A stretch of DNA of 41,315 nucleotides, taken from the NCBI GenBank assembly GCA_003559735.1, contig PWKN01000132.1:1-41315 (forward strand), given 5' to 3'. Source of the stretch: Bacteroidales bacterium (GTDB taxonomy: Bacteria > Bacteroidota > Bacteroidia > Bacteroidales > UBA7960). Both the position numbers and the translations under genes were made by a program. Below are positions 1 to 5,463 of this stretch, piece by piece. Position 1 is the stretch's first letter. Every line of letters starts with the position of its first letter. Under the pieces are notes generated by a model that did not search any database, had not been told where the DNA came from, and saw only the letters and a list, made by a program, of their open reading frames with translations.

Positions 1-35
1 AAAAAAACCACCCACATCTTATATGACGTAAGTGG
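1..35 (-). terminator. Rho-independent terminator downstream of tRNA-Arg
   Basis: Minus strand reads CCACTTAC-(12 nt)-GTGGGTGG-TTTTTTT: an 8-bp stem with two G-U pairs followed by a T-run. Confidence 0.65.
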
Positions 36-47
36 CTGATTATCTTG

Positions 48-121
48 TGACTCCGCCAGGACTCAAACCTGGAACCTTCTGATCCGTAGTCAGATGCTCT
101 ATTCAATTAAGCTACGGAGCC
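48..121 (-). tRNA. tRNA-Arg (anticodon ACG)
   Basis: Reverse complement GGCTCCG...TCTGA-CTACGGA-TCAGA...CCAGG-TTTGAGT-CCTGG-CGGAGTC-A folds as a cloverleaf. Anticodon loop CTACGGA gives ACG. No encoded CCA. Confidence 0.95.
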
Positions 122-132
122 ATTTGCGGTTG

Positions 133-140
133 CAAATATA
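133..140 (-). promoter_or_regulatory. Candidate -7 element of the tRNA-Arg promoter
   Basis: Minus strand TATATTTG matches the Bacteroidota TAnnTTTG -7 motif, 12 nt upstream of the tRNA 5' end. Confidence 0.45.
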
Positions 141-154
141 ATAAAAAAAACTAC

Positions 155-162
155 TATCTTTG
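155..162 (+). promoter_or_regulatory. Candidate -7 element for the cysE-cysK leader transcript
   Basis: TATCTTTG matches TAnnTTTG, with TTG at 130-132 at about the -33 distance. Predicted TSS near 169, 17 nt before the leader ORF. Confidence 0.5.
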
Positions 163-185
163 CAATGTGTTTTAAAAATGGCACC

Positions 186-269
186 ATGAACCATTCCGCA
201 ATAGTGTGTAACTGCTGTTGTTTTCCGTTAACCATGGAAGGGATGTGTCATATGCATTACAACACATAA
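186..269 (+). CDS. Cys-rich leader peptide of a putative cysteine attenuator (MNHSAIVCNCCCFPLTMEGMCHMHYNT)
   Basis: Short ORF below the size cut-off of the ORF track. Cys codons at positions 8, 10, 11, 12 and 21 of 27. Lies between a -7 motif and an intrinsic terminator, directly upstream of cysE-cysK. Confidence 0.75.
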   Translation: MNHSAIVCNCCCFPLTMEGMCHMHYNT

Positions 270-296
270 TATAAGCCTGATACAAGCTAGCATTTC

Positions 297-330
297 AAGC
301 CCTTCCGGAGACTCTGGAAGGGCTTTTTTA
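297..330 (+). terminator. Intrinsic terminator in the cysE leader (attenuator terminator)
   Basis: AAGCCCTTCC (297-306) and GGAAGGGCTT (316-325) form a perfect 10-bp stem followed by a T-run to 329. Confidence 0.85.
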
Positions 331-356
331 TTCAATAAGTCAATAAATGGTTTGCC

Positions 357-1112
357 ATGATCGGAAACAAGAAAACAAGACTGCCGGCAAAGTCGCACGT
401 GATCATCTTTACAAACAACCTGTGCGTAGCGATGTTTCCTGCCGTTGAGGGCAGACATACAGGTTATGCTTCTTTTAAAAAAACCAGGAGACAACTTCAC
501 CGGCTCCTGAAGTCACTGAACGGAGCAGATAAAAATACGCGGAAAGATCTGGTTCGTTGTTTTTATGAGTCGATACCCCAACTAAAACAAACACTGCATG
601 CAGATGCTGCCTTTATTGCAGATAACGATCCTGCCGCAAGCTGTATCGATGAGGTGGTGATGACCTATCCCGGATTTTTTGCCATTATGGTATACCGGCT
701 GGCCCACAAGCTGCATCTTCTCGGTATCCCGCTGATACCACGTGTAATGACCGAGTATGCCCATTCGGTTACCGGTATTGATATTCACCCGGGAGCCACC
801 ATTGGCGATGTATTCTGCATAGACCATGGCACGGGGATCGTCATCGGTGAATCGGCCATCATTGGCAAGCGGGTAAAAATATACCAGGGGGTGACCATTG
901 GTGCACTGAGCGTAAAAAAAGAACAGGCTTCGATGAAACGGCATCCCACCATAGAGGATGATGTGATCATATATGCCGGAAGTACCATTCTGGGGGGAGA
1001 TACGGTCGTTGGACGACAAAGTATTGTTGGGGGCAATGTATGGCTGACAGAAAGCCTGCCTGCCCGTACCATTGTTTATCAGCAGCCAAATAACCACATC
1101 CGGAAAAGATAA
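357..1112 (+). CDS. cysE: Serine O-acetyltransferase
   Basis: Left-handed beta-helix hexapeptide pattern (GIDIHPGATIGDVFCIDHGTGIVIGESAIIGKRVKIYQGVTIGA); upstream of cysK. Confidence 0.9.
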   Translation: MIGNKKTRLPAKSHVIIFTNNLCVAMFPAVEGRHTGYASFKKTRRQLHRLLKSLNGADKNTRKDLVRCFYESIPQLKQTLHADAAFIADNDPAASCIDEVVMTYPGFFAIMVYRLAHKLHLLGIPLIPRVMTEYAHSVTGIDIHPGATIGDVFCIDHGTGIVIGESAIIGKRVKIYQGVTIGALSVKKEQASMKRHPTIEDDVIIYAGSTILGGDTVVGRQSIVGGNVWLTESLPARTIVYQQPNNHIRKR

Positions 1113-1160
1113 CTGCTGTGCATCCGGCTGTCCGACTAAGCCAGCAAAATCAAGAATTGT

Positions 1161-2102
1161 ATGATTGTTAATAACTTAAATATCATTATGAAAGCAGATT
1201 CAGTACTTGGTATTATTGGCAATACCCCGCACATCAGGCTATCCAGACTGTTTCCCGGCCACAGGGTTTGGATAAAGCTCGAATGCACCAATCCGGGTGG
1301 GAGCATCAAAGACCGGATTGCCCTGGGTATGATTGAAGATGCAGAAAGGTCAGGTCACCTGAAACCTGGCGGTGTGATCATTGAGCCGACGTCAGGCAAT
1401 ACAGGCATCGGACTGGCAATGGTGGGTGCAGTGAAAGGGTACAGGGTGGTCCTGGTAATGCCTGAGTCAATGTCGGAAGAAAGGCGAAAGATCCTTGCTG
1501 CGTATGGGGCTGAGCTGATCCTCACGCCAAGGGAAAAAGGGATGAACGGTGCGATTGAAAGGGCCTGCCAGGTCGCAGCTTCCGTAAATAATCCATTCAT
1601 GCCCATGCAGTTCGAAAATATGGCCAACCCTGCAATACACGCTGAGACTACGGCAAGGGAGATTCTGTCAGACTTTCCTGATGGGTTTGATTACCTGGTA
1701 ACGGGTATCGGTACCGGTGGACATATTAGTGGGGTGGGAGAGCGCCTGAAACAACACGCCAACAAAACCAGGGTGTTTGGGGTCGAACCGGTACTATCGG
1801 CCGTGCTCAGCGGTGGCGACGCAGGTCCTCATCCATTGCAGGGCATTGGAGCTGGCTTTGTTCCTTCTACGCTTAATGAGCGTATCCTCGACGGAGTGAT
1901 CACCGTTGGAAAAGATGAGGCCTACACGATGGTGCGGCATCTTGCCCGGAAGGAAGGGTTGCTGGCTGGTGTTTCAACGGGTGCTTCCCTTGCCGCCATT
2001 GAACAAAAACTGCCTTCAATGGCAAAAGGCAGCAGCATTCTGACGTTTGCCTATGATACGGGTGAGCGGTACCTGAGTGTCGACGGACTCTTTGTCAGTT
2101 AG
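1161..2102 (+). CDS. cysK: Cysteine synthase (O-acetylserine sulfhydrylase)
   Basis: [14 protein letters not shown]-lysine motif and [12 protein letters not shown]. Start may be 1161 or 1191. Confidence 0.92.
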
Positions 2103-3490
2103 CTTGTTTGCTTTTGCCGTTGCCAGTGACTGATCTTCTGATGAATGTCCTGCACCTCACTGTAAAGCGCAACTTCATCCAGGTGGAGCAGTTCACGGTT
2201 TTCCATCAACAGCTTGCCGTCAATCATCACGGTTTCTACATCGCTGCCGCGCAGGCTGTAAGCGATCAATGAATAGATGTTGAAATGGGGCCAGGCGTGC
2301 GGACTTTTCAGGTCAAGGATGATGATATCGGCTTGTTTACCGGTTTCAAGGGATCCAATCATATGATCCATGCCAAGCATCCGGGCACCGCCTGATGTTA
2401 CGCTTTCCAATACCGTTCTTGCGTCCATTACCGTTGGGTCGCCCGTAACAAGCTTGTGTGCAAGGGCTGAAGAGCGCATTTCATCAAACAGGTCCAGGTC
2501 ATTGTTGCTGGCCACTCCATCGGTCCCGATACCCACCCGTACACCAAGTTTCAGCAACTCCGGAATTGGTGCCGTGCCGTTGGCCAGCTTCATGTTGCAT
2601 TGTGGGTTGTGGGCAACACCCACATTTCGACGGGCAAGTAGATGCCTGTCGTTCTCTGTGAGGTGAATCGCATGGGCAATGATGAGGTTCTGGTCAAGAA
2701 CTCCTATGTTTTCAAGGTGCCCCACGGGTGTATGCCCGTATTGTTCCTGTATCAGGTCAAACTCCCACCGGGTCTCCGACAGGTGGGTGTGCAGCGGCAC
2801 ATTGTATTTGTCAGCCAGATCTTTGGCCGTACGGTATATATCAGGATTTGCAGAATAGGGTGCGTGGGTCGCAAACGCAATCCGGATGCGCGGATGGTCA
2901 TTCCACTGTTGTATCATTTCAACGGTTAAACCCATCACTTCGCCGGGTGTGTTCCCGTTGTGTACCGGCTGATCTACAAGCGCTTCAGTGAATATGCCCC
3001 TTATTCCTGTCCGGTCTGCCTCCTCTGCCATCACATCGGTATAGAAATACATGTCATTAAAAGTGGTGGTGCCGCTTCGCAGCATTTCGGCTATGGCAAG
3101 CCGTGTGCCTGTCCGCACAGTGTCGCGGTTCACAAAAGCCGCTTCCAGGGGGAAAATATAATTATACAACCACTCATTTAGCGGAAGGTCATCGGCATAG
3201 CCCCTGAATATGTTCATGGGGGCATGTGTGTGTGCATTAACCAGTCCGGGCATGACCAGCTTGCGGTGACAATCAATGACATGGCTGCCGGTGCAGGTGT
3301 TCATCAGGTCACTGGTTTTGCCAACGAAAACGATCTTACCGTCTTTAACAGCCACACCACCGTCTTCAATTACACGAAAGGAGGGATCCATGGTAACCAC
3401 CAATCCGTGAACCAGCAATGTATCTGCCACCATGCGACCATCGTTACGTCCGGATCGTGTTTCAAAACCATTTTCTGCCATAGTAATCAA
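2099..3490 (-). CDS. mtaD: Amidohydrolase, 5-methylthioadenosine/S-adenosylhomocysteine deaminase family
   Basis: [46 protein letters not shown]. Convergent with cysK, stop codons overlap at TTAG. Confidence 0.85.
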
Positions 3491-4674: not shown

Positions 4675-5232
4675 TTAAAAAGAAACCTTTGGAGCGATGC
4701 GTTCTTCCTGGTTTTCAATTTCAAAGAAAGCCTCTTTTTTGAACCCGAACAGGGCGGCTGTGATATTTGAAGGGAACATCTCGGTCTTGTTGTTAAAGAA
4801 CAACACCTGGTCGTTGTAGTTCTGCCGGGCAAAAGAGATTTTGTTTTCCGTGCTGGTAAGTTCTTCCTGCAATGCAAGAAAGTTCTGGTTTGCTTTCAGG
4901 TCCGGATAATTTTCTACAGCCACCTTAAACTGTCCCAGCGCCGAGGTGAGCCTGCTTTCTGCCTGTGCCTTTTCAGCCACACCGGTGGCTTCCATCGCCT
5001 GTGCCCTCATCCTGGTCACATTTTCAAGGGTTTCCCGTTCGTGCTTCATATACCCCTTTACTGTTTCTATGAGATTAGGGATCAGATCATAACGACGTTT
5101 CAGCTGTACGTCGATCTGCGACCATGCATTCTTTACCTGGTTCCTCAGACGTACCAGTTTGTTATACATGCTGATCAGCATGACAACCAGTATGATTGCC
5201 AATGCAATAATGATAATCGTTGTTGTTGACAT
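4675..5232 (-). CDS. LemA family protein
   Basis: N-terminal TM followed by YNKLVRLRNQVKNAWSQIDVQLKRRYDLIPNLIETVKGYMKHE, a LemA signature. Start taken as MSTTTIIII (5232) rather than 5322. Confidence 0.9.
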   Translation of the reverse strand: MSTTTIIIIALAIILVVMLISMYNKLVRLRNQVKNAWSQIDVQLKRRYDLIPNLIETVKGYMKHERETLENVTRMRAQAMEATGVAEKAQAESRLTSALGQFKVAVENYPDLKANQNFLALQEELTSTENKISFARQNYNDQVLFFNNKTEMFPSNITAALFGFKKEAFFEIENQEERIAPKVSF

Positions 5233-5252
5233 AATGAAAAGAATTGGTTTGG

Positions 5253-5260
5253 ACAAAGAT
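5253..5260 (-). promoter_or_regulatory. Candidate -7 element for lemA-htpX
   Basis: Minus strand TATCTTTG (TAnnTTTG), 21 nt upstream of the LemA start. Confidence 0.4.
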
Positions 5261-5463
5261 AATAATAACGTTGACATAAAACAGTTCTGCCGGTTTTTTG
5301 ATGACGAGCTGCTGGTCTGCATAAAAGCAGGTGCATTCCAACCTCATACAGCTCCATTGTAAAACCAATCCGTGGGACTTTTTGTTTACGATTGCTGCAG
5401 TAAAAACGAATCAATTTTTTGTAATTTTGCATCCTTTAGATTTTATTCACAACCTTTAGTTAC

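Follow-up and report, generated by a model that had tools for sequence, protein, structure and literature searches.

The cysE-cysK operon of the Bacteroidales bacterium studied here is, judged from sequence and from folding models, very probably controlled by a leader that acts as a ribosome-mediated, cysteine-responsive transcription attenuator. We refer throughout to the window, by which we mean the whole 41,315-nt stretch of contig PWKN01000132.1 (assembly GCA_003559735.1); all coordinates are on its + strand unless marked. Our reading is based on the anatomy of the leader (Table 1), its conservation, the covariation between its segments 2 and 3, and predicted folding that depends on the position of the ribosome; from these we infer that the upstream ORF (uORF) is translated, that ribosomes stall on it, and that read-through occurs and responds to cysteine.

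Table 1. Features of the leader and the two genes that follow it in the window.
Feature	Position	Strand	Basis
Promoter -7 box TATCTTTG	155-162	+	Sequence; matches Bacteroidota TAnnTTTG consensus
Leader uORF MNHSAIVCNCCCFPLTMEGMCHMHYNT, 27 codons, ATG 186-188, TAA 267-269	186-269	+	Sequence
Putative regulatory Cys codons TGT-AAC-TGC-TGT-TGT (Cys-Asn-Cys-Cys-Cys; codons 8, 10-12)	207-221	+	Sequence
Candidate segment 1, TTTTCC, would-be partner of 236-241	221-226	+	Weak in window
Segment 2 TGGAAGGG, predicted antiterminator 5' strand, within uORF	235-242	+	Duplex with terminator 5' arm
Segment 3, terminator 5' arm AAGCCCTTCC	297-306	+	Sequence
Segment 4, terminator 3' arm GGAAGGGCTT (316-325) and T-run (324-329)	316-329	+	Sequence
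cysE, serine O-acetyltransferase, with N-terminal extension	357-1112	+	NCBIfam TIGR01172 7e-45 and EpsC-type NF041874 4.5e-42, both below their own curated cut-offs
cysK, cysteine synthase A	1161-2102	+	NCBIfam TIGR01139 8.4e-115, above cut-off

In the proposed mechanism, transcription would start just 5' of the leader uORF. When Cys-tRNA is scarce, a ribosome would stall on the Cys codons and cover the bases behind and under it; GGAAGGG (236-242) would then stay free and, once CCCTTCC (300-306) had been transcribed, pair with it, blocking the terminator so that cysE-cysK would be read. When Cys-tRNA is plentiful, the ribosome would continue through segment 2 and make that strand unavailable to the antiterminator, so that the terminator at 297-325 would form. 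Because segment 2 lies inside the uORF, a moving ribosome can clear it.

An earlier note on this DNA had reported the uORF with its Cys cluster, a perfect 10-bp terminator with a T-run, and an 8-mer, TGGAAGGG, present twice; all three hold base for base in our analysis. The terminator stem pairs 297-306 with 316-325 and ends 31 nt ahead of cysE, and the second copy of the 8-mer (315-322) overlaps its 3' arm. Over the whole window the 8-mer occurs four times on the + strand and not at all on the - strand. Segment 2 begins about 14 nt past the last Cys codon, and CATTCC at 191-196 offers an alternative segment 1. TAnnTTTG is the consensus for the Bacteroidota promoter -7 box, and the match at 155-162 places the predicted transcription start site (TSS) near 168, about 18 nt before the ATG; a start downstream of 269, which the earlier note had named as telling against its scheme, is thus not what the sequence predicts. 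The same motif lies 24-36 nt 5' of the uORF ATG in 10 of 26 relatives; if the distance is widened to 100 nt, 13 of the 26 have it, as against 2.1 expected from shuffled sequences.

Two further elements adjoin the leader. A minimal ORF, ATG-GCA-CCA-TGA at 178-189, overlaps the start of the uORF (ATGA) and could influence initiation at 186. A tRNA-Arg (ACG) gene at 47-121 (- strand) runs divergently from the leader, its end lying about 35 nt from the -7 box. Elsewhere in the window, the gene at 4675-5322 (- strand), for which the best NCBIfam name is the magnetosome protein MamQ (below cut-off), was rejected as such, since Pfam places it in the ordinary LemA family; it adjoins an HtpX-like protease gene.

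By their NCBIfam matches, both target genes of the window's leader are cysteine-making. The cysK gene stands downstream of cysE at 24 of 24 leader-bearing loci with enough 3' DNA (overlaps counted); this linkage is general across the phylum, independent of the leader, and does not separate loci with the leader from those without it.

We searched for CysE in 49 genomes of the window's family, 247 of its order, and 299 of the phylum. Within the family we read 22 loci with a window-like CysE, of which one (L013) was excluded because it meets a contig end. A Cys-run uORF followed by a terminator precedes cysE at 16 of the 21 intact loci, 14 of them scored by script and two (L010 and L012) by eye, their terminator or T-run being imperfect. 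The leader is absent at the close relatives L005, L007, L014, L019, and L021; at these leaderless loci and at L033, another close CysE relative without it, cysE instead has promoter-like TTTG boxes or upstream genes close by, so that control seems there to have been lost or replaced. Nine or more other families of the Bacteroidales have the same layout before cysE (f9, f23, f25, f37, f57, f79, f92, f96, and f111; L070, also within the order, is a doubtful instance), and most of the Bacteroidales families sampled lack it. When family f25 was held out, 11 of its 14 further cysE loci were found to carry the leader. The earlier note had expected relatives of a false candidate to lack the Cys run or the duplicated GGAAGGG; relatives keep the run and a segment resembling the terminator 3' arm, and the comparative evidence moves the layout from a plausible to a conserved element.

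Outside the order, two of 68 phylum loci look real (L207 in genome G482 and L223 in G418), each with a Cys-run uORF, a terminator, and a complementary segment. They suggest that the attenuator is older than, or has spread beyond, the Bacteroidales, and it is probably present in both lineages. Among the script matches to the layout, L218, L236, and L241 were rejected because they look like chance. A CysE tree of 80 rows, in which the row of L161 has a suspiciously long branch, shows the leader as clustered yet patchy, with 11 changes, at least nine of the gains or losses being forced by starred branches. A wider proposition would make cysteine attenuation at cysE-cysK an ancient and common control in Bacteroidia, reaching beyond the Bacteroidales (L207 and L223), repeatedly lost or regained, and a main control on cysteine synthesis; it strikes us as possible but rather doubtful. 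In the window's own genus (g1), most genomes have no window-like CysE, including the near-complete G016 (98%) and G023 (96%); cysteine auxotrophy or another route is possible in these.

We also considered other target genes. The cysS gene was rejected as a second target in the window's family, where none of 20 cysS upstream regions bears such a leader. A blind scan of 295 genomes of the order with the pattern TGTTGYTGY...CCCTT...AAGGG recovered a further cysE-cysK leader (L161); the pattern matched about as often as the reversed control did, and the only leaders among its matches (L161, L162, and L173) all lie 5' of cysE, so the scan gives no evidence for other targets. A looser pattern run over the window's own genome gave eight matches as against three for the control, of which the window's, the one examined in detail, is alone in being plainly a leader.

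What is conserved within the leader is narrow. Leader peptides, DNA, and terminators diverge among relatives, but all retain the Cys run and a segment 2 complementary to the 5' arm of their terminator. A Cys-Cys-Cys uORF followed by a terminator occurs in 20 of 138 cysE upstream regions and never on the reverse strand, and triplet runs of other amino acids number 0-2 each in the same regions, except for leucine (eight) and valine (three), which fit off-frame readings of TGTTGTTGT. Across 38 instances the run comprises two to four codons, begins in most cases at codon 10-13, and is written in nine TGT/TGC spellings; with so many spellings at a near-fixed position, it is codon identity and not DNA that is conserved. 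Segment 2 mostly starts 8-18 nt past the last Cys codon, just beyond where a stalled ribosome would sit. In the script-scored instances, the terminator follows the stop codon by 23-46 nt and the Cys run by 45-95 nt.

The antiterminator proposed in the earlier note, GGAAGGG with CCCTTCC, is supported both in the window and by compensatory changes in relatives. The sequence that follows the Cys codons was paired with the 5' arm and loop of the terminator, and the resulting duplex was compared with dinucleotide shuffles; segment 2 was picked by best duplex, a choice that favours finding one, and the shuffles were handled identically. The duplex beats its shuffles in the window (p = 0.014) and, at p < 0.05, in 18 of 26 leaders (Fisher 2e-18, which overstates the case, since relatives do not count as independent), the remaining eight of the 26 not reaching significance. 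Over the same 26 leaders, cognate pairs sum to -362 kcal/mol, compared with -281 (sd 12) for permuted partners, and none of 5000 permutations was as good. In the held-out set, from which the pairing test left two loci out, 10 of 12 leaders gave p < 0.05 (combined 1.6e-9), and permuted partners beat the cognate ones in three of 5000 permutations. Illustrative co-changes are GCAATGCCAGGG with CCCTTTCATTGC (L023), GTACCGCAAGGG with CCCTTCCGGTAT (L249), and GTATTGGGAGG with CCTTCCCAGTAT (L018). By sequence, then, the segment 2:3 antiterminator is mutually exclusive with the terminator and tracks the terminator arm through compensatory changes.

Folding predictions on transcripts that end before the terminator 3' arm show the dependence on ribosome position that such a switch would need. 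The mean predicted probability of 2:3 pairing is 0.41 in free RNA, 0.92 when a ribosome occupies the Cys codons, and 0.27 when it stands at the stop codon (0.38, 0.97, and 0.38 in the held-out set), so that the stalled-versus-free comparison suggested in the earlier note comes out as it foresaw, at about 0.4 against more than 0.9; some members still favour 2:3 with the ribosome parked at the stop codon. For the window itself, a stall at the Cys codons gives a predicted value of 0.97-0.99, compared with 0.00 for a ribosome over segment 2 and 0.33 for one at the stop; in free RNA it is 0.15 when the 5' end is set at 161 and 0.94 when it is set at 168, segment 2 being defined slightly differently in each. 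Once the RNA is full-length, nearly all leaders favour the terminator at equilibrium (pairing 0.95 in the window), and the decision must therefore be kinetic, as in classical attenuators.

The earlier note had assigned the leader to the trp/his type, and this stands as far as the Cys codons, the terminator, and the predicted antiterminator are concerned; the weakest part of the scheme is the competing 1:2 hairpin (221-226:236-241). In the window this consists of four Watson-Crick and two G-U pairs, with a predicted probability of 0.02 in free pre-terminator RNA (start at 168), 0.36 with the ribosome at the stop codon, and 0.55 in full-length RNA. The protector hairpin is strong in many relatives (mean 0.61 in free RNA), and f25 and other relatives have a stronger hairpin directly after the Cys codons, with arms that vary among TTGG/CCAA, GGTA/TACC, and CAAG/CTTG; a MAFFT alignment of the f25 leaders, in which row L034 has wrong bounds, slides these arms out of register. 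Given the weak hairpin in the window and free-RNA values that hang on the chosen 5' end, the better-supported model there is one in which the antiterminator would be switched off mainly by the ribosome moving over segment 2, with 1:2 pairing as help.

Several other explanations deserve weighing against this attenuator. Ribosome occupancy of a Cys-codon uORF might by itself set cysE-cysK expression, through translation coupling, RNA stability, or access of Rho, with no four-segment switch at all, as has been proposed for actinobacterial Cys leaders that lack conserved terminators (PMC1262725); the weak 1:2 hairpin of the window would suit such a scheme, but every script-counted instance has an intrinsic terminator with a T-run, and segment 2 co-varies with the terminator 5' arm, which makes it unlikely. 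We consider it very unlikely that the hairpin belongs to some other attenuator or terminator, for example an uncharted metabolite-binding RNA, with the Cys-rich ORF a by-product. Riboswitches often carry a terminator shortly before a gene, and a class that has yet to be described could escape Rfam; against this, in a search covering T-boxes, SAM and other riboswitches, and leaders, only a tRNA reaches threshold in window positions 1-3000 (Phe_leader scores 21.7 bits there, with 55 required), and no family reaches its gathering score in 20 relatives. Nor is much sequence or structure kept besides the Cys codons and segments 2, 3, and 4, and the Cys run lies in frame after an ATG at its near-fixed position whatever the spelling.

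That the uORF instead encodes a small functional Cys-rich protein, perhaps a metal-binding one, is hardly credible: it does have start and stop codons and encodes five cysteines, but the peptide outside the run differs even between the close relatives L011 and L015, it has no Pfam match, and within the set the uORF always stands ahead of cysE with a terminator after it. Coincidence of a terminator with a random Cys cluster has next to no probability, although the cluster by itself is not rare in the window, a comparable one occurring in 11 of its 963 short ATG ORFs (about 1%, nested starts counted apart). The case against chance is comparative: the arrangement returns ahead of the same operon in ten families, and again in the held-out family, with none on the reverse strand, and this already contradicts it.

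The literature we searched says little on how Bacteroidota control cysteine synthesis, and most charting of leader-peptide attenuation has been done in Proteobacteria and Actinobacteria. A candidate that is conserved and computationally well supported offers a direct and cheap test, and some 40 natural variants of one predicted switch would allow study of how ribosome position, terminator, and antiterminator co-evolve.

The trp/his-type attenuators of Proteobacteria combine a four-segment logic with regulatory codons cognate to the pathway product. The leader described here would share that logic and has codons cognate to the amino acid product of its operon, and differs in amino acid, in phylum, and in having segment 2 inside the uORF. 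Theory of trp/his-type attenuation is set out in PMC1183508. Within the same phylum, passages of a study of Flavobacterium psychrophilum (PMC9723704) note leader-peptide attenuation before amino-acid operons and so propose the same general mechanism, but these passages name neither the amino acid nor cysE. In the openly accessible papers searched, we found no description of a Cys leader in Bacteroidota or before cysE-cysK. Cys-run leader ORFs before cysteine genes, as here, are found in Actinobacteria, where a conserved terminator is lacking and Rho has been suggested (PMC1262725), and among the polycysteine uORFs of mycobacteria (Canestrari et al. 2020, as cited in PMC13236596 and PMC9094748). 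Unlike these uORFs, which stand on leaderless transcripts, lack a conserved intrinsic terminator, and place the run near the stop codon, the present one has a terminator, a predicted antiterminator, and a predicted TSS about 18 nt ahead of its ATG. The closest known system is the uORFC-8-2 motif of Rhodobacterales cysS leaders, with tandem Cys codons at 14-15, a stem that holds them, and then an intrinsic terminator, from which Cys-tRNA attenuation was inferred (PMC8632094). Both systems join a Cys-codon uORF to an intrinsic terminator, but uORFC-8-2 is alphaproteobacterial and serves cysS, which in the window's family has no such leader, whereas the present element has longer Cys runs and precedes cysE-cysK in Bacteroidales. 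Most likely, therefore, cysteine attenuators known from Rhodobacterales (cysS) and mycobacteria are joined here by a new one, predicted from sequence and modelled folding, at cysE-cysK of Bacteroidales.
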